Assembly (NCBI RefSeq): GCF_012516315.1
Contig: NZ_CP051185.1
Coordinates: 5,089,363-5,153,362, forward strand
Length of the DNA stretch: 64,000 nucleotides
Source: Limnospira fusiformis SAG 85.79
GTDB taxonomy: Bacteria > Cyanobacteriota > Cyanobacteriia > Cyanobacteriales > Microcoleaceae
Direction: 5' to 3'
The first letter of the stretch is position 1; each line of letters opens with the position of its first letter. The translations under genes were made by a program, and so were the position numbers. This document shows, one piece after another, positions 10,001-60,942 of this stretch. Under the pieces are notes generated by a model, which was given only the letters and a program-made list of their open reading frames with translations, was not told where the DNA came from and searched no databases.

Positions 10001-11369
10001 AGTCAGTTTATCCAATTATGTAGGATCAAATGCCAGTACCCAGTATAGTTCTGGGCGCCCCCACCTCGGTTCTCGCACGCCGGACCACAACCGCAAACCC
10101 TGGAAAGCCGCCATTTCTGAATATGCCAGCAGAATCAAACGTTTGATGGCCGAAAAGCGATTATCTCCCCCTGTGTGGCAAAGATTTGGTGATGTATTGG
10201 AAGCCTTAGATGAAGCCAAATATGATGGCCTCCTAGATATTGCTGGGGAATGCTTCTATCGAGCCAAAAACTTGCGGCGGGCGGTCCGCTGTTGGCAGCG
10301 TTGTGGGTCTACTGACCGACGGGAATATAATATTGCTTTAGCTGATGTATTAGGCTTCCCAGAAGGTTTGGCTTATTTGGAACGAGCCGGAAATAGCGAT
10401 CGCATTATTGCTGAATGGGAACGCGCCGGTCGTCCCGTCACCGCCCAGTGGTTAAAATATGGCGAATGTGTTAGACGCGCTTTACTTGCACAAAATCGCT
10501 ACCGTGACTGGGTAGAATATTTGATGCGCTCCCGACAATGGTCTGATGCGATCGCCGCCTTAGAAGAGTGTTCTCCATCCGAAATCAAGAGCTTACAGTT
10601 TGAGTTAATCCGACAACTGGCTCGCTCTAATTTGACCCCACAACAGGTCCGCATTGCTCGCTCTCGCTATATGACCCTCATAGACCAAGTATTATCTAAT
10701 TCCGATTGGAAAACCTATCTAGCAGTTCCCGAAGTCGGCATAGTCCTCGAAAGAATTGGCGATTTGGTGCGGACTTTACGATTTTATGAGCAGTTTGTTC
10801 AAGCCGAAAACCTGCATTTAAAGGTGTTTGCTCGACAACGTTGGATTGTTAATAAAATTAAACAGCAAAATTATGCGGCCAACGTTGACACTAGGCGGGC
10901 TGTCGCTATTCAGGAGGAGATTAACCGCAAAGCCTCTGATTGGAGGATTGATTTAGACGCTTTACCTACCGATCTGCCACCCATAGACCGTTTGACAGTC
11001 CATAAATCCCAGCAAGCCGCTATCAATCTTGTCCAAGGGTTGCCCCCTGGAGTGCAGCTAAATCTTTCCTCTTCCGATGGTCATGCTTATAGTTTCCGTA
11101 TTGATTCCATTGAAGTGCGGGTCGTTAAACGCGATCACCTCCTCAAGGCGACAATTACCGATCTGCATACTCTCAATTTGCTACAAATCGAGGTTGATAG
11201 TCGCGGCGGTAGGGTCTGTATTGGCAATATGTTTGTCGAAGCGGATGATGGTCAGCGTCTTTTGTTTCAAGGTCCTGTTACTGGCTGTAGTGGCGCGATT
11301 ATCTATCGTCAGAGTCCCCCATTGGTTCAACTAAAGTTACCCAATCACCCTGATACTATTGTTTTTTAG
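7071..11369 (+). CDS. Giant SF1 (UvrD/Rep-like) helicase fused to a RelE-like N-terminus and a long helical repeat region
   Basis: The product has 1432 residues. Residues ~1-100 (MYIYTTPRFDQQAKQFGIQ onward) look like a RelE/ParE-type fold. Superfamily 1 helicase motifs follow: Walker A GRAGSGKST (~322-330), Walker B FCDEAQDF (~533-540), motif III AGDPFQTLNPTGF (~572), motif IV ESNYRSSP (~616), motif V SAIQAKGLEFPLVI (~723) and motif VI YVAASRG (~772). Insertions between motifs are large. From ~850 to ~1280 the chain is helical, TPR-like, with repeated W/A/E-rich helices. The last ~140 residues are beta-rich and unknown. The layout recalls TRANK1-like helicases (TPR plus helicase) rather than repair UvrD. 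A role in RNA/DNA surveillance or defence is inference. It appears to be a single gene, and its last 38 bases are duplicated just downstream. Confidence 0.85.
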   Translation: MYIYTTPRFDQQAKQFGIQGQIAELVVAIQTQGSSAVHAYFNWNYPYLKRPVRNLRLLGKIFPFKNERVLCLLDVLTRGGNEYESFLQNPEDYGKKHLDPLVYYTDLENSIKGQKERQKGPLRPKFLPEIYHGWLQRPTWTRNTDDRIICEGEVWIKQFQQQETRDQWQSYGEIVLAIVEGQEEKQDTPWPNLYLTRKPDSSNYVLYSHLETADGLPRRVVFLVASFDSPPQPGDIEAVLQQTRLLTLDFPQGIFSTPITFDILSRYTRRAYPDYLVLDPALWLELEADNGINLALSVEEERILHELSSPDSENSLPLFINGRAGSGKSTMLVYLFAEYCDRYRKIYAQTLPEKVIKPLFLTYNERLLTRAKQGVEKLLITNYKFMLNSSNLEKMPPLEPCFQSFQDFLINLLPPEESDKFDRDRYISFYDFRQHCTHRQKRYSPELCWHIIRTFIKGYSLVTQNDEYMTPEDYDDVPRREKTISSEVFDAIYRQVWPWYYKLTHDGGYWDDQDLIRRVLQVQGDNLPKYTAIFCDEAQDFTKLELLLIVKLSLFSDSVMYPPIPSLPFAFAGDPFQTLNPTGFRWQSVKATFFDQVISHLDPDQKLNLGMSFYELESNYRSSPAIVKMTNLIHLWRHLVFKIPQLKPQEAWQPIANARHPQKFIFGQRNFSVNDLKRHIEKSPIFIVPCEAHGELKYIKNDEFLSSLYPLASETNPPKNVLSAIQAKGLEFPLVILYKFGEQFAKEFGRSLWDYINLDQEHPLELEYFFNKLYVAASRGITNLIVIDTEAGDRLLWQYATTDSLHQSTYQLEQCLAASDDRQIWYGYIGGLNWGDSLENLDLDHRELQAQEFEENGRMQKDPVSLRRAKQFYLELGKEQEALLCEAWALRFDRRFREAGLLFYRRGENDAAWECFWHGLCWQALLDWYHQFPESRPAERPLVQFMATPTKTLAVVFAFTLFLEEVLAQKSTTDPGKVSLSNYVGSNASTQYSSGRPHLGSRTPDHNRKPWKAAISEYASRIKRLMAEKRLSPPVWQRFGDVLEALDEAKYDGLLDIAGECFYRAKNLRRAVRCWQRCGSTDRREYNIALADVLGFPEGLAYLERAGNSDRIIAEWERAGRPVTAQWLKYGECVRRALLAQNRYRDWVEYLMRSRQWSDAIAALEECSPSEIKSLQFELIRQLARSNLTPQQVRIARSRYMTLIDQVLSNSDWKTYLAVPEVGIVLERIGDLVRTLRFYEQFVQAENLHLKVFARQRWIVNKIKQQNYAANVDTRRAVAIQEEINRKASDWRIDLDALPTDLPPIDRLTVHKSQQAAINLVQGLPPGVQLNLSSSDGHAYSFRIDSIEVRVVKRDHLLKATITDLHTLNLLQIEVDSRGGRVCIGNMFVEADDGQRLLFQGPVTGCSGAIIYRQSPPLVQLKLPNHPDTIVF

Positions 11370-11403
11370 CAATTTGTTATCTTTGGGCGTGCATCACATC
11401 CCT

Positions 11404-11460
11404 AGGGGCGGGTTCTCCCATCCATCCTCTATTTCACCAGAGTCTTCATAACCCGCCCCT
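11404..11460. terminator. GGGGCGGGTT/AACCCGCCCC hairpin, first copy
   Basis: aggggcgggtt (11404-11414) and aacccgcccct (11450-11460) form a perfect 11-bp stem around a 35-base loop. Placed 35 bases after the helicase stop, it could end or stabilise the transcript. There is no T run, so a classical terminator is not certain. Confidence 0.5.
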
Positions 11461-11540
11461 ATAAAGTTACCCAATCACCCTGATACTATTACTATTATTT
11501 TTTAGCAATCTGTTATCTTTCCGCGTCCATCACCATCCGT

Positions 11541-11597
11541 AGGGGCGGGTTCTCCCATCCATCCTCTATTTCACCAGAATCTTCATAACCCGCCCCT
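11541..11597. terminator. GGGGCGGGTT/AACCCGCCCC hairpin, second copy
   Basis: The arms lie at 11541-11551 and 11587-11597. This is the duplicate of the preceding hairpin, with the loop differing at one position. Confidence 0.5.
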
Positions 11598-11640
11598 ATC
11601 CTAGTTTTTCCCGTAGCTTGTCCGATGCGAAGCACCCTAC

Positions 11641-11970
11641 GCGGGTGCAGCAGTCTTATCCTGTGTGCTGTGGCTGGCTTTAGCACCGGGGCGGGTGTAG
11701 CAGTCTTATCCTGTGTGCTGTGGCTGGCTTTAGCACTGGGGCGGGTGTAGCAGTCCTATCCTGTGTGCTGTGGCTGGCTTTAGCACCGGGGCGGGTGTAG
11801 CAGTCCTATCCTGTGTGCTGTGGTGGCTTGGGGCGGGTGCAGCAGTCTTATCCTGTGTGCTGTGGCTGGCTTTAGCACCGGGGCGGGTGTAGCAGTCCTA
11901 TCCTGTGTGCTGTGGCTGGCTTTAGCACCGGGGCGGGTGTAGCAGTCCTATCCTGTGTGCTGTGGCTGAT
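11641..11970. repeat. Minisatellite: seven copies of a 50-bp unit
   Basis: Units begin with GCGGGTG at 11641, 11691, 11741, 11791, 11833, 11883 and 11933. The fourth is shortened to 42 bases and the seventh is partial. Variation is limited to a few positions (T/C in the cagtCttatc segment, accggg/actggg). There are no differing spacers, so this is not a CRISPR array. All frames checked are short; the repeat lies in the gap between the helicase and rhodanese genes and carries no sign of coding. The rest of the 11370-12077 gap holds only the duplication described above. Confidence 0.92.
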
Positions 11971-49370: not shown

Positions 49371-49414
49371 GAGTTTTGAGCGACCCCATATCGGTTCTCA
49401 AAACTCATTTTTTT
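49371..49414 (+). terminator. Terminator of the porin gene
   Basis: gagttttgag (49371-49380) and ctcaaaactc (49397-49406) form a perfect 10-bp stem with a 16-base loop, followed by seven T. It is 29 bases after the porin stop. Confidence 0.9.
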
Positions 49415-49456
49415 GTTATATTTTGGGGAAATGTTAAGCAACCAAAAGGAGCGCCT

Positions 49457-51184
49457 ATCGAAACCATACACGGAAACCTGCAAGGTCTCAAACCGAGTCA
49501 GCTTAAACAACTGCAACGCCTGTACCATCAAAAACTACCAGGCGATCGCATTACTACTTCAGAATTTGCCCAGCGACTCGCCGGGGTAAGTACAGACATC
49601 AAAGAGCCAGTCTGCGCCTATATAAACCGTCGTGGGCAGGTGATTAGGGTGGGAGTAGGCACGGTCAGTCAGACCCGCATTCCTGCCCTAGAATTGCCCC
49701 GCTATGGTAATGGTCGCCTCAGTGGTATTCGGTGTATAGCCACCCAGTTAAAATCTGATGTACCTAGGGAGTCAGTCTTAACCGCCATGGCTATGCAACG
49801 GTTAGATGTTTTGGCGATTTTGACCCTGACCGGAAGCGGGTTTGAACGTCGTGGGGGGGGTGGGACAGGTTATGTGAAAGAAGCCTATCTCGCCCATTTG
49901 TTACCCCAAGGGGAAGGGGAAAACCAGACCCAACTTGATAGTCCTCTGGCTCCAGTACCCTATTATGTTTCATCCCCCATGAGTCTTGATGTTCTCTCTA
50001 ACCAAGATTTCCTGGATTTGGTAGATGGACTAGAAGCCGAATTTCAGCGGGAATTTGTCGCCCTTGATGTCAACTCTGACCAAGATAGGGTGCTATTGGT
50101 GGGGGTACAAACTGACAAAATTTCCACCCAGAGATTTGAAGAAGGGTTAGCCGAATTAGCCCGCCTGGTGGATACTGCGGGGGGTATTGTCCTGCAAACT
50201 CTTCGCCAAAAGCGATCGCGTCCCCATCCCCAAACGGTAGTCGGAGAGGGAAAAACCCAGGAAATTGCCCTGGCGGCGCAAACTCTGGGGGCGACCTTAA
50301 TTGTTTTCGATCGCAGTTTATCTCCGGCGCAAGTCCGTAATTTGGAAACCCGCATTGGAGTCCGAGTAGTCGATCGCACGGAAGTTATCCTAGATATTTT
50401 CGCCCAACGCGCCCAGTCTGGGGCGGGAAAATTACAGGTTGAACTCGCGCAGCTAGAATACAGTCTACCGCGTCTCACCGGAAGGGGTCAGGCTATGTCT
50501 CGGTTAGGTGGCGGTATTGGTACTCGTGGACCTGGGGAAACTAAACTAGAAACCGAAAGACGGGCCATTCAGCGGCGCATCGCCCGCCTTCAGCAGGAGG
50601 TTAACCAACTACAGGCCCATCGCGCCCGTCTCCGCCAACGTCGCCAACGCCAGGAGGTTCCTACATTGGCTATTGTGGGTTATACGAATGCGGGTAAGTC
50701 TACTTTGCTTAATGTTCTCACCGCTTCGGAAATTTACGCCGCTGACCAATTATTTGCTACTCTCGACCCCACTAGCCGCCGCCTAACTATCCCCGATGCG
50801 ATTACGGAAGAACCCCAAAATATTGTAATTACTGATACGGTGGGGTTTATTCATGAATTACCCCCAGCTTTAATTGATGCTTTTCGCGCTACTTTAGAGG
50901 AGGTGACTGATGCTGATGCCCTGCTGCATTTGGTAGATTTATCTCACCCAGCGTGGCAGGCACAAATTCAATCCGTGATGGAGATTTTAACTCAAATGCC
51001 GATTACTCCCGGTCCGGCTTTATTGGCTTTTAATAAAATCGATTCTGTGGATGGGGAAACTCTCCGTTTTGCCCAAGAAGAATACCCCCAAGCTGTATTT
51101 ATTTCGGCTGCTAATGCCCTCGGTTTGGAAACTCTCCGCCGCCGCATTGCACAGTTAATTGATTATGCGATCGCTAATCAATAA
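49457..51184 (+). CDS. hflX: Ribosome-splitting GTPase HflX, apparent ATC start
   Basis: HflX binds 50S or stalled 70S ribosomes and splits them after stress. Visible are the N-terminal HflX domain (VGVQTDKISTQRFEEGLAELARL, GKTQEIALAAQTLGATLIVFD), the glycine-rich RLGGGIGTRGPGETKLE linker, and the G domain GYTNAGKSTLLNVL with DTVGFIHELP. The open frame reaches back to a TTG at 49376, but that lies inside the porin terminator. No ATG, GTG or TTG exists between. The only well-placed site is ATC 49457, preceded by AAAGGAG at five bases and giving an N-terminus (IETIHGNLQGLK) that matches the usual start METIHGN. So either initiation is at ATC or the ATG has been mutated. Confidence 0.9.
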   Translation: METIHGNLQGLKPSQLKQLQRLYHQKLPGDRITTSEFAQRLAGVSTDIKEPVCAYINRRGQVIRVGVGTVSQTRIPALELPRYGNGRLSGIRCIATQLKSDVPRESVLTAMAMQRLDVLAILTLTGSGFERRGGGGTGYVKEAYLAHLLPQGEGENQTQLDSPLAPVPYYVSSPMSLDVLSNQDFLDLVDGLEAEFQREFVALDVNSDQDRVLLVGVQTDKISTQRFEEGLAELARLVDTAGGIVLQTLRQKRSRPHPQTVVGEGKTQEIALAAQTLGATLIVFDRSLSPAQVRNLETRIGVRVVDRTEVILDIFAQRAQSGAGKLQVELAQLEYSLPRLTGRGQAMSRLGGGIGTRGPGETKLETERRAIQRRIARLQQEVNQLQAHRARLRQRRQRQEVPTLAIVGYTNAGKSTLLNVLTASEIYAADQLFATLDPTSRRLTIPDAITEEPQNIVITDTVGFIHELPPALIDAFRATLEEVTDADALLHLVDLSHPAWQAQIQSVMEILTQMPITPGPALLAFNKIDSVDGETLRFAQEEYPQAVFISAANALGLETLRRRIAQLIDYAIANQ

Positions 51185-51189
51185 GAGAC

Positions 51190-51250
51190 TTCCAGAAACC
51201 CGGTATCTCCCAGAAACCCGGTTTCTCCCAGAAACCGGGTTTCTTTTCCC
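51190..51250. repeat. Palindromic element with AGAAACCCGGTTTCT arms
   Basis: cagaaacccggtatctccc, then agaaacccggtttct and agaaaccgggtttct arms with a short loop, and a TTTTCCC tail. Identical in type to the hairpins repeated at 58038-60070. It lies between hflX and the conflict-system operon and could serve as the hflX terminator. Confidence 0.75.
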
Positions 51251-51305: not shown

Positions 51306-53198
51306 ATGACCATTGGGCGATCGCTTCGTCGTGTAGCGATTTGTAGCGGAATTTATGTTGGGGCTTCCGTCTTATTACCGGAGTTGGCTATCCCGGTCGG
51401 TTTTTTATCGACTGAGAAAGGTCAAGACATATTGACCAAAGTGGGCGAAATGATTAGCGGTGTGACGGCGGGTAATACGGCTAATGCAATTGATAACTTT
51501 GACCGAAGCAGAGGTTCTGATTACGTTAGGCTAGAGAATGAGGATTTAATTCGCGTTTGTGGAAAGGCGATCGCGCAAATTATTCATTTGGCTGCCGAAC
51601 AGTATAATAACCGCAATTTCAAAGATTATAATCAACGCTATTCTAAACATCTGAAAATGATAGCCGCCCAAGCTACCGAAAAATGGGTAAAATTGGCGCG
51701 TTTTGAATTTGATCAATCTAAATATAAACAGTTAACCGAGGGAGAAATCCCCTTAATTCTTACCCCCACAGAAGAAGGGTTAACCCAAGCGGAAATTTTG
51801 ACCGTTGAAGAGTGGCGGGATATTTTAGCCAAATTAGATTTAAAGGCGGTAGACTCAGACAAAGGCGTTGATTTGCCGGGTTATGTGCGCCAATATGTAG
51901 CAGAATTACTGCATAAAGAATTTCCGCGAGTCTTACGAGAAGCATTAAAACAGGACTTTAAGGCAGATGGGAAAGCCTTTGCTGGGTTAATGATTCAACT
52001 GATTACTGGCATTAGTCAAGAGTTGGATAAACAGGGTGAAATTGCCCTAATTTCCTTGGCAAAAATCGAACAGATAGAACAGCAGTTAAACGGAACCGAA
52101 CAGGAGATCCAGGAATTATTTATCGATATTTCTGACCGGATGCAAACCGGGTTTGAGCAACTTTGCCATGAATTCGGACTTCTTGAGACCAACATTAACA
52201 AAAACCTGCAAACAATCCGAGAATCACTGGTTGAGATTAAAGAAGATACAACAGTTATCCGACAAGATACTACAGAAATCAAAGAATCTCTGGCATCTAT
52301 GCAGGATGAATTTACGAAGCGTATGTTGGATGAACTTAGTAAGGTACGGCAGGATATTCAAAGCCTTAATCAACCTCACCCTAGGGAAACTACCGAGGAG
52401 AAACTACTTAAAGCATTGCTGAATTTAGATTATGATAAACAGGCGAATTTATTTAAAGAGTTTGTGGACAATCATCAAATCGGAGCTTGTTTAGTTCACG
52501 GTTCGCGTGAAACTGCACCCCGTTGGTTGCTCAATCGTTTGATTCGCCATGTTCCCAACGGCAAGACATCTACCAACCGCAACGCATCTGATAGTAATTA
52601 TGTTAATTTTGTAGCAAAAATCAGTTTTGTTTCCCGGAGTTATGCTTACTCCTTAGACAATTTTTTAAAAGCAATTAGTCGTGAATTGAAAATGGTAGAA
52701 ACCAGTTCAGTTACAGACATTCATCAAAAAATTTTGGAATTATGGCAATCTCAAACGCTGATTTTAATTTTTACAAATCCTGACAAGGTTGAAGAATCTG
52801 ATCTTGAGGAATTTTTGCAAGAGTTTTGGCAACCATTAGCCCAGTTGGCTCGTCAGAGAGGGACAACTCATGAAAACTACAGTTTACTTTTATTCTTGCT
52901 AGATGAAGATGGATGTACCAATCATTGGAATATTGCTTATACTCAAGAACCGACCTCAGATTTAATTCCCCACGCTCTGATTAAATTGATGGATATACAA
53001 CCCATAACACGCCGACAATTATCAATTTGGCTAGAGTCATTTTGTGGCGCTGAAAAACTACTCGAATATACTGATAATTTAGTTGGTGAGATTATTGGAG
53101 ACAGTCAAAATGGACTTCATAAAGATATCTTGAAAAAAATCTGCTCTCTCTGTAAAATTGAATTGGAGGACTATGTATCAACATGGATGAAATATTAA
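51306..53198 (+). CDS. iSTAND-like protein, first gene of the MoxR-vWA operon
   Basis: The 630-residue product begins with a hydrophobic, helical N-terminal segment (RVAICSGIYVGASVLLPELAI) of the kind seen in cyanobacterial STAND ATPases. A helical region, a coiled coil (~270-345) and a C-terminal ~240-residue domain follow. The latter has the STAND outline: NLDYDKQANLFKEFV, strand-loop GACLVHGSRETAPRWLLNRL, strand TLILIFTNPD. The loop lacks the GxxGxGK(T/S) P-loop, so it cannot bind ATP normally; it matches the inactive STAND (iSTAND) class described in conflict systems. It overlaps the MoxR gene by 16 bases. Role (inference): recognition or scaffold subunit. Confidence 0.72.
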   Translation: MTIGRSLRRVAICSGIYVGASVLLPELAIPVGFLSTEKGQDILTKVGEMISGVTAGNTANAIDNFDRSRGSDYVRLENEDLIRVCGKAIAQIIHLAAEQYNNRNFKDYNQRYSKHLKMIAAQATEKWVKLARFEFDQSKYKQLTEGEIPLILTPTEEGLTQAEILTVEEWRDILAKLDLKAVDSDKGVDLPGYVRQYVAELLHKEFPRVLREALKQDFKADGKAFAGLMIQLITGISQELDKQGEIALISLAKIEQIEQQLNGTEQEIQELFIDISDRMQTGFEQLCHEFGLLETNINKNLQTIRESLVEIKEDTTVIRQDTTEIKESLASMQDEFTKRMLDELSKVRQDIQSLNQPHPRETTEEKLLKALLNLDYDKQANLFKEFVDNHQIGACLVHGSRETAPRWLLNRLIRHVPNGKTSTNRNASDSNYVNFVAKISFVSRSYAYSLDNFLKAISRELKMVETSSVTDIHQKILELWQSQTLILIFTNPDKVEESDLEEFLQEFWQPLAQLARQRGTTHENYSLLLFLLDEDGCTNHWNIAYTQEPTSDLIPHALIKLMDIQPITRRQLSIWLESFCGAEKLLEYTDNLVGEIIGDSQNGLHKDILKKICSLCKIELEDYVSTWMKY

Positions 53199-54160
53199 CA
53201 ACACCCACAGAAAACTTACGCTATACCGGAAAAAAGCATCCTCCTAAAGACCATAAGGAGAATGGACAGCGAGTTTATCCCTATTTACCCAGTGATGAAC
53301 TTGTGGAAGCCGTTAATTTAGCCATTACTTTACAGCGTCCTTTGCTGCTGCAAGGTGAACCCGGTTGTGGTAAAACTAAATTAGCCCAAGCTGTCGCCTA
53401 TGAGTTGGAATTACCCTATCTCTGCTGGACGATTAAATCCACCAGTCGCGCACAAGATGGCCTCTATACCTATAATAACTTAGCCAGACTGCGGGACTCT
53501 CAATTACTGGGGTTAGGTCAAATTACTGACCCGCAAGAAAAACGGCGGGTTAAAGACCCTAAAACCTATGTAGAATTGGGTAAACTTGGGGAGGCTTTTC
53601 TCAGCGATAAACCTACCGTTTTATTGATTGATGAAATTGACAAGGCGGATATTGATTTCCCCAATGATTTATTATTGGAGTTAGACGAAAAACGCTTCTC
53701 TATACCCGAAACGAAAAAGGAAAAGACGGCTAGACATTCTCCGATTATCTTTATTACCAGTAATCAGGAACGAGATTTACCCGATGCTTTTTTAAGGCGC
53801 TGTTTATTTCATTATATTGAGTTTCCCAAAAAAGAACGGTTAATTGAGATTATTATGGCTCGGGTTTTTGGGGTTACACAAGATAAATCAACGATTCCTG
53901 AAAATGAAAATGAGTTGATTGAAGCAGCGGTGGATAAGTTCCAGGAGTTGCGGGAATTTTTGCGGGAGGAAAAAGGAGAAAGAGGTAAAAATATCAGTAC
54001 CAGTGAGTTGATTGATTGGTTTGAGGTCCTGCGTAAATATCCTCATGATGAGGTGCTGAAAAAGTTACAGGGTCCACTTCCCTATTTAGGGGTTTTACTG
54101 AAAACTTGGGATGACCACCGACTTTATTTAAGCAAATCTAGGGGGAAGGATGAAAGTTAA
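53183..54160 (+). CDS. MoxR-family AAA+ ATPase
   Basis: MoxR ATPases are chaperone-like AAA+ proteins that usually act with a vWA partner. The 325-residue protein shows Walker A QGEPGCGKTKLAQ, Walker B VLLIDEIDKADIDFPNDLL, sensor 1 IFITSNQERDLPDAFLRRC and the MoxR lid region. Its gene overlaps the iSTAND-like gene by 16 bases and the vWA gene by 11 bases, so the three are translated in a coupled way. Confidence 0.93.
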   Translation: MDEILTTPTENLRYTGKKHPPKDHKENGQRVYPYLPSDELVEAVNLAITLQRPLLLQGEPGCGKTKLAQAVAYELELPYLCWTIKSTSRAQDGLYTYNNLARLRDSQLLGLGQITDPQEKRRVKDPKTYVELGKLGEAFLSDKPTVLLIDEIDKADIDFPNDLLLELDEKRFSIPETKKEKTARHSPIIFITSNQERDLPDAFLRRCLFHYIEFPKKERLIEIIMARVFGVTQDKSTIPENENELIEAAVDKFQELREFLREEKGERGKNISTSELIDWFEVLRKYPHDEVLKKLQGPLPYLGVLLKTWDDHRLYLSKSRGKDES

Positions 54161-55334
54161 TGATTTACCCCTGCGAGAGTTATTTGACAAGCTGCGTCAA
54201 GCGGGTTTTGTGTTGGGGATTGATGAATATGAACTGCTGTTAGAAGCCTTGATGAAAGGGTTTGGCATTGAGGATGAAGCGGCGTTAAAAAGACTCTGTA
54301 AAACTTTGTGGGTGAAGTCGGTTGAAGATGAAAAAATTTTCAATTCTTATTTTGAGGAGGTGATGTCTCAACCCCTTGAGAATCCATTGGTCACAGTCGA
54401 GAAACCTACTCCCGCCAAACCAGCGATTCCTACTACACAGCCGCAGGTAAAACAGGTAAAAACGACACCCACATTACCTCCAAATGATGAGAGGGTATCA
54501 CCGGATAAATTACCCCCGCCTGAACCACGCCGTGACGAACCCCCACAGCCACCAACTCAGCCATCTTCGGAAGCTGAAAAATCAGAACCTGATGAATCTG
54601 AATTTATGTTGCCAGAGGTGGCGGTAGAAATGGATGATGAGGTACAGTTACTGAAAACCATAACCAGTGAACAGTTTTTTTTATCTTCGGATTATTTGCC
54701 GTTAACCAAAAGGGAAATGAAACAAACTTGGCGTTATTTACGGCTTCCGATTCGCGAGGGGCCATTGGTTGAATTAGATGTGACGGCAACCATAGAAAAA
54801 ATTATCCGGGATGGGTTTTTCTTGGAACCCGTGTTAGTCCCCCGACGCAGGAATCTGGTTGAGTTGGTTTTGCTGTTGGATATTGATGGTTCAATGGTGG
54901 CTTTTCATCCTTTGGGGGATAGACTGAAAGACACTGCGACGCGGGGGGGAAAGTTGGGTGCATCGCGGGTTTATTATTTCCATAATTGTCCGGTGGATTA
55001 TGTTTATGGGAAGCCGGGATATTCTGAGGCGGTGAGGGTGGAGGATATGTTGAGCGGATTATCTGCCAATCGCGCTTGTATGCTCATTTTTAGCGATGCT
55101 GGCGCGGCACGGGGGGGATATAGTGAAGATAGGTTACAATTGACTGAGAGATTCCTGCGGCAGTGTCAGCAACACTTACGTTATCTGGTTTGGGTGAATC
55201 CTGTGCCGAGAGAACGGTGGGCAAGGTCCACGGCTGGGGAAATCGCTAAGTTAATCCCGATGTTGGAATGCGATCGCCTTGGGTTACAAAATGCCGTTAA
55301 GGTGTTACGGGGAAATCCAGTGAGTCAGTCATAA
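54150..55334 (+). CDS. von Willebrand factor A domain protein, MoxR partner
   Basis: The 394-residue protein has an N-terminal helical region (~1-75), a Pro-rich linker (~80-150) and a C-terminal vWA domain (~225-385): the MIDAS loop LLLDIDGSMVAFHP, then ASRVYYFHNCPVDYVYG and MLIFSDAGAARGG. The MIDAS reads DxDxS instead of the usual DxSxS, so one Ser metal ligand is replaced by Asp. In MoxR-vWA pairs the vWA protein is the substrate adaptor of the ATPase. It is the third gene of the operon, with 41 bases to the MNT gene. Confidence 0.88.
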   Translation: MKVNDLPLRELFDKLRQAGFVLGIDEYELLLEALMKGFGIEDEAALKRLCKTLWVKSVEDEKIFNSYFEEVMSQPLENPLVTVEKPTPAKPAIPTTQPQVKQVKTTPTLPPNDERVSPDKLPPPEPRRDEPPQPPTQPSSEAEKSEPDESEFMLPEVAVEMDDEVQLLKTITSEQFFLSSDYLPLTKREMKQTWRYLRLPIREGPLVELDVTATIEKIIRDGFFLEPVLVPRRRNLVELVLLLDIDGSMVAFHPLGDRLKDTATRGGKLGASRVYYFHNCPVDYVYGKPGYSEAVRVEDMLSGLSANRACMLIFSDAGAARGGYSEDRLQLTERFLRQCQQHLRYLVWVNPVPRERWARSTAGEIAKLIPMLECDRLGLQNAVKVLRGNPVSQS

Positions 55335-55375
55335 ATCCTAGCATTTTTTCATCTAATTGTCAAGGGTATTATTGT

Positions 55376-55684
55376 ATGAAACTCAAAGATGAATTACAAC
55401 AAAGACGAGATGAAATTTTAGCGGTTGCACAACAGCATGGGGCGTTCAATGTGCGGATATTTGGGTCGGTGGCGAGGGGGGAAGAACAGGAGGATAGTGA
55501 TATTGATTTCTTGGTGGAAATGAACAGTAATTGCAGTTTATTGGATAGAATTGCCTTAATCCAAGATTTAGAGGACTTGTTAAACCGAAAAGTTGATGTC
55601 ACGACGGTTAAAGGTTTACGGGATTATTTGAGAGAACGGATTATCAATCAGGCGATTAGTTTGTCAGATTTGGGCAATCATTGA
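55376..55684 (+). CDS. MNT-type minimal nucleotidyltransferase without a HEPN partner
   Basis: The 102-residue protein has the polymerase-beta-like signature GSVARGEEQEDSDIDFLVE (Gly30-Ser31 and Asp42/Asp44) and a third acidic position in KVDVTTV. In MntA-HepT modules, such proteins AMPylate and silence a HEPN RNase. Here no HEPN gene is adjacent on either side. It may modify another protein of this operon or be a stray antitoxin. The gene starts ATG 55376; its end overlaps a possible TTG start of the next gene by four bases. Confidence 0.87.
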   Translation: MKLKDELQQRRDEILAVAQQHGAFNVRIFGSVARGEEQEDSDIDFLVEMNSNCSLLDRIALIQDLEDLLNRKVDVTTVKGLRDYLRERIINQAISLSDLGNH

Positions 55685-55707
55685 ATGATGAAAATGGACG
55701 GCATATC

Positions 55708-57978
55708 ATGGAACTAGAAGCGGCTAAACGTCGGATTAATGCTTTTCAGAAAAGGTTTGGGGAGCCTCACCTTTTGTTTGCTTATCATGCCGCGTTACCG
55801 TTGGCGATAACTCCCGATTTGCTGTATCAGATTTTGGCGAATTTTCGGCGGGATATTCAGGGGGAATTTATCGAGATTCCTTGGATTGCGGTTTCGGATT
55901 TAATTCTCTCCAGTTTGTGTGATGAGGTGGGGCATGAATTGTATGAAATGGATGCGACAGTCCGCCAAGAATTGTTAGACCAGTTGAAAGCTAATCCTCG
56001 ATTTACAGGGCAACGCCTGAAGGAAGTGGCGTGTTTTTTATTGCAGTATGTGCAGAAAGATTTAAACAGTCAAGATAGTTATGACCGGGAGTTTGCCGAG
56101 TCGCAAAGTTGGGCGGCTTGGGCTTATGCCAAACCTCAGAAATCAGTGGAGTTATTGGCGGCGGCTTTCCGGCGGGCATATCAAGAAAATCCTAGGGATT
56201 TGATGCGACTTTCGACGCTGACGGAGATGATTCATCAACCGATTACAGAGTTTGACCGCCTGCTAATTTTTGCCAGGGCAATGGGGCATTATCGACGCAA
56301 GAAGTTTGAAGAAGCAAAGGCAGGGATCGCCCAGTTACCGCATGAGGGCGGGGTAGTTTCTGTGAGTGACAAGATTAAGATTCCGATTCCCCGCGAGTTG
56401 TTACCTGTTATTAAGACGGTTGAGGATGAAGAAATCGCTAAGTTGCTTGGAGTTATTGAAAATACTCAGGATGAAAATACCCGTAGGGAGGCGATTGAGA
56501 GTTTAGGGGAAATCGGTGTCGGAAATCCTGAAGCGATCGCCACGTTAGTTCAAGTTATTGAAAATACTCAGAATGAATATATCCGTAGTCGGGCTGCTAA
56601 TAGTTTAGAGAAAATTGACCCAGGAAATTATCAAGTTATTGCCGGGTTAGTTCAAGTTATTGAAAATACTCAGAATGAATATATCCGTAAGCGGGCGGCT
56701 GAGAGTTTAAGAAAAATCGATCCCGGAAATCCTCAAGCTATTGCCACGTTGGTTCAAGTGATTCAAAATACTCAGGATCAAGATAACCGTTGGCGGGCGG
56801 CTGAGAGTTTAGAGAAAAGTTTAGAAAAAATCGGTGTCGGAAATCCTCAAGCGATCGCCGCGTTGGTTCAAGTTATTGAAAATACTCAGGATGAAGATAC
56901 CCGTAGGAAGGCGATCGCAAGTTTAGAAAAAATCGGTGTCGGAAATCCTCAAGCGATCGCCGCGTTGGTTCAAGTTATTCAAAATACTCAGGATGAAAAG
57001 ACCCGTAGGGAGGCGGCTGAGGGTTTATGGAAAATCGACCCCGGAAATCCTGAAGCGATCGCCGGGTTGGTTCAAGTTATTCAAAATACTCAGTATGAAC
57101 GTACCCGTAGGCAGGCGATCGCACGTTTAGGGGAAATCGGTGTCGGAAATCCTGAAGCGATCGCCGGGTTGGTTCAAGTTATTCAAAATACTCAGGATGA
57201 AGATACCCGTAGGAAGGCGGCTGAGAGTTTAGGGAAAATAGACCCCGGAAATCCTCAAGCGATCGCCGGGTTAGTTAAAGTTATTGAAAATACTCAGGAT
57301 GAATATACCCGTAGTCAGGCGATCGCACGTTTAGGGGAAATCGGTGTCGGAAATCCTGAAGCGATCGCTGGGTTGGTTCAAGTTATTCAAAACACTCAGT
57401 CTGAATATACCCGTAGTCAGGCGGCTGAAAGTTTAGGGAAAATAGACCCCGGAAATCCTGAAGCGATCGCCGCGTTGGTTCAAGTTATTCAAAATACTCA
57501 GTCTGAAAATACCCGTGGTCAGGCGGCTGAAAGTTTAGGGAAAATAGACCCCGGAAATCCTGAAGCGATCGCCGCGTTGGTTCAAGTTATTCAAAACACT
57601 CAGTCTGAATATACCCGTAGTCAGGCGGCTGAAAGTTTAGGGAAAATAGACCCCGGAAATCCTGAAGCGATCGCCGCGTTGGTTCAAGTTATTCAAAATA
57701 CTCAGTCTGAAAATACCCGTGGTCAGGCGGCTGAGAGTTTAGGGAAAATAGACCCCGGAAATCCTCAAGCGATCGCCGGGTTAGTTAAAGTTATTGAAAA
57801 TACTCAGGATGAATATAACCGTATGCTGGCGGCTAAGAGTTTAGCAAAAATCGACCCCGGAAATCCTCAAGTTATTACTGGGTTGGTTCAAGTTATTCAA
57901 AATACTCAGCATGAATATACCCGTAGGCAGGCGATCGCCACTTTAAGAAAAATCGACCCCGGAAATCCTCATCTGTAA
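55708..57978 (+). CDS. Conflict-system protein with 15 near-identical 34-residue HEAT-like repeats
   Basis: The N-terminal ~220 residues (MELEAAKRRINAFQKRFGEPHLLFAYHAALPLAITPDLLY...) form a domain I associate with cyanobacterial proteins encoded beside MoxR-vWA pairs. From about residue 245 to the end are 15 HEAT-like repeats of 34 residues (VIQNTQDEDTRRKAAESLGK, then IDPGNPEAIAALVQ), one with a four-residue insertion. At DNA level, many repeats carry a HIP1 octamer at the same place (PEAIA codons). Repeats 10-13 are almost identical copies, a sign of recent expansion. ATG 55708 is preferred; a TTG at 55681 is an alternative. The gene's last bases are the seed of the downstream array. Confidence 0.87.
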   Translation: MELEAAKRRINAFQKRFGEPHLLFAYHAALPLAITPDLLYQILANFRRDIQGEFIEIPWIAVSDLILSSLCDEVGHELYEMDATVRQELLDQLKANPRFTGQRLKEVACFLLQYVQKDLNSQDSYDREFAESQSWAAWAYAKPQKSVELLAAAFRRAYQENPRDLMRLSTLTEMIHQPITEFDRLLIFARAMGHYRRKKFEEAKAGIAQLPHEGGVVSVSDKIKIPIPRELLPVIKTVEDEEIAKLLGVIENTQDENTRREAIESLGEIGVGNPEAIATLVQVIENTQNEYIRSRAANSLEKIDPGNYQVIAGLVQVIENTQNEYIRKRAAESLRKIDPGNPQAIATLVQVIQNTQDQDNRWRAAESLEKSLEKIGVGNPQAIAALVQVIENTQDEDTRRKAIASLEKIGVGNPQAIAALVQVIQNTQDEKTRREAAEGLWKIDPGNPEAIAGLVQVIQNTQYERTRRQAIARLGEIGVGNPEAIAGLVQVIQNTQDEDTRRKAAESLGKIDPGNPQAIAGLVKVIENTQDEYTRSQAIARLGEIGVGNPEAIAGLVQVIQNTQSEYTRSQAAESLGKIDPGNPEAIAALVQVIQNTQSENTRGQAAESLGKIDPGNPEAIAALVQVIQNTQSEYTRSQAAESLGKIDPGNPEAIAALVQVIQNTQSENTRGQAAESLGKIDPGNPQAIAGLVKVIENTQDEYNRMLAAKSLAKIDPGNPQVITGLVQVIQNTQHEYTRRQAIATLRKIDPGNPHL

Positions 57979-60290
57979 ATCAAGTCGCTTTCACCCTTCA
58001 CCGGACTTCCGAAACCCGGTGGCTTGTTGAGACTCTTAGAAACCCGGTTTCTCTAAGAAACCGGGTTTCTTTTCCCAGTAGCAGGGCGATCGCCACTTTA
58101 AGAAAAATCGACCCCGGAAATCCTCACCTGTAAATCAAGCCGCTTTCACCCTTCACCGGACTTCCGAAACCCGGTGGCTTGTTGAGACTTTTAGAAACCC
58201 GGTTTCTCTAAGAAACCGGGTTTCTTTTCCCAGTAGCAGAGCGATCGCCACTTTAAGAAAAATCGACCCCGGAAATCCTCACCTGTAAATCAAGCCGCTT
58301 TCACCCTTCACCGGACTTCCGAAACCCGGTGGCTTGTTGAGACTCTTAGAAACCCGGTTTCTTTTCCCATTTCTTTTCCCAGTAGCAGAGCGATCGCCAC
58401 TTTAAGAAAAATCGACCCCGGAAATCCTCACCTGTAAATCAAGCCGCTTTCACCCTTCACCGGAATTCCGAAACCCGGTGGCTTGTTGAGACTTTTAGAA
58501 ACCCGGTTTCTTTTCCCATTTCTTTTCCCAGTAGCAGGGCGATCGCCACTTTAAGAAAAATCGACCCCGGAAATCCTCACCTGTAAATCAAGCCGCTTTC
58601 ACCCTTCACCGGACTTCCGAAACCCGGTGGCTTGTTGAGACTTTTAGAAACCCGGTTTCTCTAAGAAACCGGGTTTCTTTTCCCAGTAGCAGAGCGATCG
58701 CCACTTTAAGAAAAATCGACCCCGGAAATCCTCATCTGTAAATCAAGCCGCTTTCACCCTTCACCGTACTTCCGAAACTCGGTGGCTTGTTGAGACTCTT
58801 AGAAACCCGGTTTCTTTTCCCATTTCTTTTCCCAGTAGCAGAGCGATCGCCACTTTAAGAAAAATCGACCCCGGAAATCCTCACCTGTAAATCAAGCCGC
58901 TTTCACCCTTCACCGGACTTCCGAAACCCGGTGGCTTGTTGAGACTTTTAGAAACCCGGTTTCTTTTCCCATTTCTTTTCCCAGTAGCAGGGCGATCGCC
59001 ACTTTAAGAAAAATCGACCCCGGAAATCCTCACCTGTAAATCAAGCCGCTTTCACCCTTCACCGGACTTCCGAAACCCGGTGGCTTGTTGAGACTCTTAG
59101 AAACCCGGTTTCTCCCAGAAACCGGGTTTCTTTTCCCAGTAGCAGAGCGATCGCCACTTTAAGAAAAATCGACCCCGGAAATCCTCATCTGTAAATCAAG
59201 CCGCTTTCACCCTTCACCGGACTTCCGAAACCCGGTGGCTTGTTGAGACTTTTAGAAACCCGGTTTCTCTAAGAAACCGGGTTTCTTTTCCCAGTAGCAG
59301 AGCGATCGCCACTTTAAGAAAAATCGACCCCGGAAATCCTCATCTGTAAATCAAGCCGCTTTCACCCTTCACCGGACTTCCGAAACCCGGTGGCTTGTTG
59401 AGACTTTTAGAAACCCGGTTTCTCTAAGAAACCGGGTTTCTTTTCCCAGTAGCAGAGCGATCGCCACTTTAAGAAAAATCGACACCGGAAATCCTCATCT
59501 GTAATCAAGCTCCGCCTTCACCTCCGGACTTCCGAAACCCGGTGGCTTGTTGAGATTCTTAGAAACCCGGTTTCTCTAAGAAACCGGGTTTCTTTTCCCA
59601 GTAGCAGAGCGATCGCCACTTTAAGAAAAATCGACCCCGGAAATCCTCATCTGTAAATCAAGCCGCTTTCACCCTTCACCGGACTTCCGAAACTCGGTGG
59701 CTTGTTGAGACTCTTAGAAACCCGGTTTCTCCCAGAAACCGGGTTTCTTTTCCCAGTAGCAGAGCGATCGCCACTTTAAGAAAAATCGACCCCGGAAATC
59801 CTCACCTGTAAATCAAGCCGCTTTCACCCTTCACCGGACTTCCGAAACTCGGTGGCTTGTTGAGACTCTTAGAAACCCGGTATCTCCCAGAAACCGGGTT
59901 TCTTTTCCCAGTAGCAGAGCGATCGCCACTTTAAGAAAAATCGACCCCGGAAATCCTCACCTGTAAATCAAGCCGCTTTCACCCTTCACCGGACTTCCGA
60001 AACCCGGTGGCTTGTTGAGACTTTTAGAAACCCGGTTTCTCTAAGAAACCGGGTTTCTTTTCCCAGTAGCAGAGCGATCGCCACTTTAAGAAAAATCGAC
60101 CCCGGAAATCCTCACCTGTAAATCAAGCCGCTTTCACCCTTCACCGGAATTCCGAAACCCGGTGGCTTGTTGAGACTTTTAGAAACCCGGTTTCTTTTCC
60201 CATTTCTTTTCCCAGTAGCAGAGCGATCGCCACTTTAAGAGAAATCGACCCCGGAAATCCTCACCTGTAAATTAAGCCGGTTTCACCCCA
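57979..60290. repeat. Tandem array of 15 ~153-bp units derived from the HEAT gene end plus a palindrome
   Basis: The anchor gcgatcgccactttaag occurs in the gene at 57931 and again at 58086, 58241, 58390, 58539, 58693, 58842, 58992, 59147, 59302, 59457, 59609, 59763, 59919, 60073 and 60222. The period is 149-156 bases. Each unit holds, in order, the last ~16 codons and stop of the HEAT gene, a caccgg/ccggtg hairpin and an AGAAACCCGGTTTCT palindrome. In ten units the second arm is present, as a perfect 15-bp stem plus TTTT; in five units (149-150 bases) it is replaced by TTTTCCCATTTC. No gene is encoded in the 2.3 kb. Confidence 0.95.
58038..58074 (+). terminator. First intrinsic-terminator-like palindrome of the array
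   Basis: agaaacccggtttct (58038-58052) and agaaaccgggtttct (58056-58070) form a perfect 15-bp stem with a 3-base loop, followed by TTT. It lies 60 bases after the HEAT gene stop and probably ends the operon. It is then repeated in most units of the array. Confidence 0.8.
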
Positions 60291-60384: not shown

Positions 60385-60942
60385 ATGGTACTGTCAACCA
60401 TCAAATGGAGTTTAGACGATTATCATCACATGATTAAAACCGGGTTGCTGGTGGGTCGTCCCGTAGAATTCCTAGCCGGAGAAATTGTCGAAATGCCCCC
60501 AGAAGGTGAATCTCATGCCTTTTTTAGTCGCGCGGCTGGATCTTATCTTACTCGTATTTTAGCCGATCGCGCTTTAGTCAGTCCAGCCAAACCCATTACT
60601 CTCCCCAATAACTCCGAACCCGAACCAGATATCGCTATTGTTGCACCTTTGGGTCGGGAATATCTCAATCATCACCCCTACCCCGAAAATATTTTCTGGG
60701 TGATTGAATATGCGGACAGCAGCCTACTGAAAGATAAAACAGTGAAATATCATATCTATGCTGAGGCTGGTATTCCAGAATATTGGCTGGTGAATTTACA
60801 AACGGGAGAGTTGATTATTCACCGGGAACCGAGACGACGGGAATATGGTTCTAAAATTACCCTCACTTATGGAGAGGTTTCCCCCGTGGCTTTTCCTGAT
60901 ATTACTATTCCCGTGGAGGCGATAATTTCAGCGGTTATATAA
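60385..60942 (+). CDS. Uma2 family (DUF820) PD-(D/E)XK nuclease-like protein
   Basis: The 185-residue protein has the Uma2 layout: WSLDDYHHMIKTGLLVG, GEIVEMPPEGESHA, then the nuclease core EPEPDIAIV (metal Asp), FWVIEYADSS (Glu) and KYHIYAEAGIPEYWLVN (Lys region). The family is hugely expanded in cyanobacteria, and the function of most members is unknown. An AGGGGA ribosome site supports ATG 60385. It lies directly after the repeat array and could belong to the same defence-rich region. Confidence 0.92.
   Translation: MVLSTIKWSLDDYHHMIKTGLLVGRPVEFLAGEIVEMPPEGESHAFFSRAAGSYLTRILADRALVSPAKPITLPNNSEPEPDIAIVAPLGREYLNHHPYPENIFWVIEYADSSLLKDKTVKYHIYAEAGIPEYWLVNLQTGELIIHREPRRREYGSKITLTYGEVSPVAFPDITIPVEAIISAVI

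Follow-up and report, generated by a model that had tools for sequence, protein, structure and literature searches.

A satellite array of HEAT gene ends and a REP-like palindrome in Limnospira fusiformis, with a candidate transposase partner

In canonical repetitive extragenic palindromic (REP) sequences, the hairpin foot is marked by a GT[AG]G guide. Here we describe a satellite array behind a HEAT-repeat gene in a 64,000-nucleotide stretch (the window) of the genome of the cyanobacterium Limnospira fusiformis SAG 85.79. Its closest described counterparts are the REPIN (REP doublet forming hairpin) clusters of Pseudomonas fluorescens SBW25, which consist of tandem, near-identical palindromic doublets including their flanks and lie beside genes encoding REP-associated tyrosine transposases (RAYTs). 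In the relevant parts of PMC3116915 the largest SBW25 REPIN cluster comprises four REPINs over more than 700 bp; for tandem REP arrays the maximum is 12 sequences. Like these clusters, the HEAT array is made of tandem palindromic doublets with flanking DNA, and a RAYT gene lies elsewhere in the genome beside arrays of the same palindrome. Unlike them, it has 15 units over 2.3 kb (and ~26 units over 6.1 kb are found at another locus), its flank includes the last codons of a gene, and it bears no guide tag.

Other known elements invite comparison. Cyanobacterial families are found among the GTAG- and CGTC-tagged REPs, namely GTAG-12, GTAG-15 and GTAG-16 (excerpt of PMC3733652). Unlike these, the Limnospira palindrome is without a GT[AG]G tag, a difference that concerns this tag, and the palindrome may still be linked to one of the three families. 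In the survey excerpted from PMC6006769, TnpAY1 subclass 2.1 (RAYT group 1) is given as 238 long, extended at the C terminus and devoid of REP-like sequences, and subclasses 2.6 and 3 are also without the GT[AG]G guide. The Limnospira RAYT shares with subclass 2.1 the motifs NHYH, FQ and YIHLNP, a match made by eye and with no tree, and differs from the subclass as surveyed in that excerpt by its length of 189 aa and by palindromes on both sides of the gene at most of the loci examined. Highly iterated palindrome 1 (HIP1, GCGATCGC) is an over-represented octamer palindrome of cyanobacteria (excerpt of PMC4390886) with 101 copies in the window. The palindrome described here is likewise over-represented; unlike the octamer, it is 15 bp long, mostly extragenic and transposase-linked.

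The HEAT array is a large variant of the known REPIN-type clusters, and the guide-less palindrome with its RAYT clade is the newer part; the pairing of transposase and palindrome is a newer finding than the array. The literature searched gave no text match to the palindrome (13 or 15 bases, centre C or G) and no report of the array or of a palindrome-transposase pairing, and absence is claimed no further than that.

Architecture and age of the array

The HEAT-repeat protein gene (55681-57978, plus strand; Pfam HEAT_2, 7.5e-107) is followed on the same strand by a tandem array at 57931-60288 with 15 complete units and one partial unit. Tandem Repeats Finder (TRF), run on the window, returned 57927-60288 with 15.5 copies, a period of 155 and 94% matches, and anchoring on GCGATCGCCACTTTAAG found 16 gene-end copies. 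The anchored decomposition gave unit lengths of 155 bp (nine units), 149 bp (five) and 152 bp (one). An earlier note on this DNA had described about 15 units built on the end of the HEAT gene, and both statements hold, except that the copied part comprises 15 sense codons plus the stop (57931-57978, repeated in every unit) rather than 16 codons. The partial last unit (60223-60288, plus strand) has 66 bases, of which 48 are the gene-end copy and 18 the sequence 3' of it.

In each unit the gene-end copy is followed by a small CACCGG..CCGGTG hairpin and then by a 15-bp palindrome, as had been noted earlier. Ten units carry the palindrome as a doublet; the five others carry it once, having lost the second arm. 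Two-arm units have the form AGAAACCCGGTTTCT-3 nt-AGAAACCGGGTTTCT, a 15-bp inverted repeat with both arms exact in 9 of 10. The first doublet, AGAAACCCGGTTTCT-CTA-AGAAACCGGGTTTCT at 58038-58070, forms a 15-bp inverted repeat without mismatches around a 3-nt loop. A doublet recurs in the long units, and the region around the first one (58026-58078) folds at -23.5 kcal/mol (z -4.3). In the first short unit the single palindrome lies at 58348-58362; its second arm has been replaced and the strong hairpin lost, with the surrounding region (58340-58385) folding at only -3.1 kcal/mol (z 0.24). One-arm units fold no better than shuffled sequences. One HIP1 site marks the left edge of each unit. Rfam gave only four sub-threshold matches (17.4 bits versus a gathering score of 49.5), which were dismissed.

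The order of unit types along the array is LLSSLSSLLLLLLLS. Units 2, 5 and 14 have one and the same sequence, and units 9 and 10 likewise match each other exactly. When the odd unit 11 was excluded, one variable column was found in the 48 gene-derived bases and 19 in the other 107, with 12 of the 19 in the block of arm and loop. A lag test (lags 1-8 versus shuffled units) detected no higher-order periodicity among the units (lag 3, fraction 0.34), and a three-unit superstructure given by TRF as a period of 453 was rejected, the lag test not being significant. From the unit variants we read growth of the array by more than one event. Unequal exchange, which had been read from the irregular succession of unit types, is also plausible, although the lag test does not prove it.

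A contig search returned five relatives of the HEAT gene, one of which is the locus of the sister genome (G001). The ortholog there is 90% identical over residues 1-275 and has nearly the same final codons, and no array stands behind it. Its 3' side holds a short CCCAGAAACTGGG hairpin, ~0.8 kb of other sequence and then a Uma2-like gene (named by eye). As the sister ortholog is without an array, the array is probably young and probably grew after the two lineages parted. Among the other relatives, the gene end was readable in two, both from Laspinema/Oscillatoria (L094 and L095). It resembles that of the HEAT gene, the nearest 3 kb are free of the palindrome, and the 260 bases read show no gene-end copy.

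A dispersed palindrome and one RAYT clade

The palindrome AGAAACCNGGTTTCT has 608 copies in the L. fusiformis genome and the backwards pattern used as control has none; chance is therefore excluded. Of 291 genomes sampled from the order, 130 contain it; counts rise to 1466, those of the control never exceed 2, and the spread is patchy by family. The sister genome has 70 palindromes, and among the 50 of these that were listed there was no long palindrome array. In sampled stretches of other genera the palindrome occurs as singles, as 15-3-15 doublets and as ~65-bp elements with two inverted copies. The doublets (start spacing 18) were present in 7 of 8 genomes looked at, and a spacing of 50 or 51 was found in 17 of 23 elements, the search having been preset to spacings of 46-57. 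Non-array elements in the sampled stretches of eight genomes lie mostly outside open reading frames (ORFs) of at least 100 aa (56 of 66), whereas 77-93% of random points fall inside. Of 123 palindromes sampled in the L. fusiformis genome, 106 belong to arrays. Outside Limnospira, no sampled palindrome lay in a TRF array in G053 (0/10), G163 (0/12), G064 (0/2) or G016 (0/2).

Among Y1_Tnp matches in eight genomes, the L. fusiformis gene at 6319569-6320135 sits between palindrome arrays, its two sides holding 21 and 7 copies. Its 189-aa product matches the NCBIfam REP-associated tyrosine transposase model NF047646 at 81.6 bits (cut-off 80); REP_Tyr_transpos scores of 81.6, 84.5 and 83.7 bits were obtained. 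The sole Protein Data Bank sequence match at E 0.01 is TnpArep (4er8, E 2.6e-07), and HUH and Tyr motifs were recognized by eye. Relatives at E 1e-20 or better occur in 53 of the 291 genomes, of which the best 30, one locus per genome, were examined. Palindromes within 600 nt on both sides of the gene were found at 23 of these 30 loci, where chance would give 0 to 0.7 palindromes per whole locus of 2.2-3.6 kb. All 23 are among the 26 loci whose RAYT is at least 61% identical, and none is among the four below 60%.

A control set of 30 Y1_Tnp loci in seven genomes contained three with the clade motif PNHYHLLV, and these held 13, 9 and 9 palindromes. Of the remaining 27 loci, 23 held no palindrome and four held 1 to 4. 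For seven further short Y1 proteins, which have a YIHYNP-like motif, ~3 kb on each side was inspected for the 13-base core; five were palindrome-free, one had a single palindrome at 3.1 kb and one had four ~1 kb to one side. Genomes with at least 20 palindromes made up 30 of 53 RAYT-positive versus 47 of 238 RAYT-negative genomes (Fisher p 2e-7), a weak comparison, since the genomes cannot be treated as independent and many of the assemblies come in fragments. Within the genus, 608 palindromes accompany an open RAYT gene in one genome and 70 a frameshifted one in the other, a contrast between two genomes only. The sister RAYT gene in question lies at about 540762-541300 and its frameshift, seen by eye, is near the start.

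Because it lies on both sides of the genes of one RAYT clade, the palindrome is classed as a REP-like repeat, dispersed and transposase-linked, without the usual GT[AG]G guide. The earlier note had proposed that the gene end was copied together with its own terminator; the gene end was indeed copied, whereas the palindrome is this dispersed repeat and not a terminator private to the gene.

Tandem copying in the genome and competing explanations

Tandem copying was surveyed in an unbiased sample of 40 evenly spaced 20-kb stretches of the L. fusiformis genome (800 kb, 12.5%), in which an array was called non-coding if not contained in one open frame. There were 37 non-coding arrays covering 25.2 kb, about 3%, and 34 more inside open frames. 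The 13-base palindrome core was present in 8 of the 37. After each array with a period of at least 25 had been collapsed to one unit, the 15-mer was found in 7 of 33 units versus 0.5 in random non-coding intervals, a ~14-fold enrichment; random placements reached at most 4 palindrome-bearing units, and 0 of 5000 trials matched the observed 7. Inverted-repeat arms of at least 11 bp were found in 9 of 31 array units versus 1 of 465 control intervals. Palindrome-free units had such arms in 3 of 25 cases, and their arms were overall longer than those of controls (p 0.0016). Hairpins go with tandem growth, though most arrays are without this palindrome, which seems to favour array growth but not to be required for it. 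At loci chosen for the palindrome, a biased set, 25 of 33 arrays hold it.

Two long arrays were also seen. At 568314-574462 of the L. fusiformis genome a 6.1-kb array of ~26 units of 234 bp (99% matches, 26 palindromes) is not within an open frame. In the sister genome a 10.3-kb array of mixed unit lengths at 4443819-4454110 is not within one open frame either. HIP1 was considered as a general junction and rejected, being present in the units of the HEAT array and of the 301-aa gene described below and in few others, and absent from most consensus units listed.

Gene ends copied into downstream arrays were sought at the fetched loci and then among 650 ORFs of the 800-kb sample. After frames inside arrays or coding repeats had been set aside, two further clear gene-end arrays with at least three downstream copies remained. 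Behind a 301-aa gene without Pfam match that ends at 793742 (locus 792025-794486), ~238-bp units consist of the last ~60 codons plus a palindrome doublet, and a partial second gene copy just upstream shows the same pattern. Behind a PPC-like gene ending at 2718111 (PF04151, 22.1 bits, below the cut-off of 25.9), the array at 2718067-2719859 has 13 copies of the last codons, 12 of them downstream. Behind the sister orthologs of the two genes (87% and 91%), 700 and 400 bases were read and showed no gene-end copy, and one stray fragment of the end of the 301-aa gene lies elsewhere in the sister genome, at 3954492. The scan of 650 ORFs gave 15 end hits versus 11 start hits, and no preference of arrays for 3' ends is claimed, since gene starts were also caught (2714609). 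Of the end hits with at least three copies, those set aside by eye were 1753657 (frames within a palindrome array), 1912294 with 1912417 (both from frames within a coding repeat) and 792462 (the partial gene copy beside 793742). The start hit at 321635 is a CRISPR (clustered regularly interspaced short palindromic repeats) array. A separate array at 1600764-1602401 follows a truncated transposase; its 129-bp unit, present in 12.6 copies, has another palindrome (GTAGGTTGGGT..ACCCAACCTAC); this array, at 1600817, possibly represents a second REP-like family.

We consider it probable that the HEAT array represents a tandem REP-like cluster that has incorporated the 3' end of the gene. It seems to be one instance of the tandem copying to which this genome is generally prone, rather than a purpose-built terminator stack. 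A palindrome doublet would have lain behind the HEAT gene, and short similar sequences could have allowed strand slippage or hairpin nicking between them, the latter perhaps by the RAYT, to give a first tandem duplication spanning the end of the gene through the doublet. Unequal recombination may then have enlarged the array, and an arm-loss variant would have arisen and spread to five units. The HEAT gene would tolerate the array in that the first copy keeps reading frame and stop, and the array needs no dedicated function. More tentatively, the order may have a guide-less REP system composed of the 15-bp palindrome and the short RAYT clade, in which Limnospira hairpins, perhaps via nicking, would start runaway tandem copying of gene 3' ends into satellites.

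The main competitor is ordinary minisatellite growth, in which the genome freely duplicates intergenic DNA and the palindrome is a mere passenger. The 25.2 kb of non-coding arrays in the unbiased sample, most of them palindrome-free, agree with it, as do the PPC-like array and the sister genome, which has nine arrays in 400 kb (16.4 kb) despite just 70 palindromes. The palindrome enrichment in array units, which no random placement equalled, and the general enrichment of long inverted repeats in these units argue the other way, and we regard the passenger role as rather unlikely.

Several observations nevertheless weigh against a transposase-linked REP-like element as the basis of the array. 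The palindrome is missing from 29 of the 37 non-coding arrays of the sample and from the PPC-like array, in which a TAATTAT heptamer tract of varying length separates the copies. Outside Limnospira, sampled palindromes do lie in TRF arrays in G106 (4/16), G057 (4/34), G118 (10/19) and G031 (4/16), and the palindromes listed for G229 step by about 184 bases. The GT[AG]G guide is absent from the foot of the palindrome, with 3 of 102 in seven other genomes versus 12 in control windows, 32 of 243 at RAYT loci versus 37 in the control, and 1 of 36 in the sister genome versus 4. Three of the 26 close RAYT loci have no palindrome; the four distant loci belong on this side too, three of them in genomes without any palindrome, which hence test little. 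In G057 one other Y1 protein has four palindromes ~1 kb to one side. The 47 RAYT-negative genomes noted above still hold at least 20 palindromes, and 23 of the 53 positive genomes hold fewer. No excision or insertion event was observed.

A selected terminator stack or insulating barrier between the HEAT and Uma2 genes is improbable; the earlier note had suggested a stack of about ten terminators or a protective barrier. The array does lie between two same-strand genes, ten units can form the 15-bp hairpin followed by TTTCCC, and elements within 80 nt after a stop codon exceeded random expectation in five of eight genomes, but they fell below it in the other three (1 to 8 elements per genome throughout). 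Moreover, a consensus scan of both strands flagged no terminator-like site in the array, its hairpins included, the strong hairpin is gone from 5 of 15 units, convergent genes enclose 12 of 56 extragenic elements, and the sister genome lives without the array.

An assembly artefact is very improbable: tandem arrays are a classical assembly problem, but the genome around the window is a single contig of 6,423,694 bases and the units differ by several variants, which is not what one read copied over would give. In size this contig fits the closed 6.42-Mb genome of L. fusiformis SAG 85.79 described in PMC8085491, which was built from nanopore reads of more than 35 kb. Least credible of all is a recombination reservoir feeding new repeats into the HEAT gene, for although the last 48 nt of the gene recur in the units and the gene is itself built of similar 102-bp repeats (56451-57971 by TRF), the idea fails on unit length and stop codon (48 bases are less than half a HEAT repeat and end in a stop, and 155, 149 and 152 are multiples neither of 3 nor of 102), and the array-less sister gene has the longer open frame (870 versus 772 codons).

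Neighbouring features and significance

The Uma2-family gene 3' of the array lies at 60385-60942 (plus strand; Pfam Uma2, 1.4e-27). Another palindrome doublet of the window, with palindromes at 51212 and 51230, lies 3' of the ORF at 49376-51184; TRF detected it at 51192-51244 together with a short repeat of 18 bp. Genes stand in one row at 53183-57978, encoding AAA ATPase-like, VWA-like, nucleotidyltransferase (NTP_transf_2) and HEAT proteins, the first two named by eye; the row may be a conflict-type operon, a guess made by eye. Two adjoining tandem arrays without the palindrome (periods 137 and 50/142) lie at 11332-11968.

These results show that gene ends can give rise to kilobase satellites in a bacterial genome, and they offer one RAYT clade with its palindrome as a candidate driver of such satellites. 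They also correct the view of such palindromes as simple terminators. If the transposase acts on the palindrome, a RAYT subclass described as REP-less would acquire a REP, and the tandem arraying of REPs with neighbouring DNA would become approachable by experiment.

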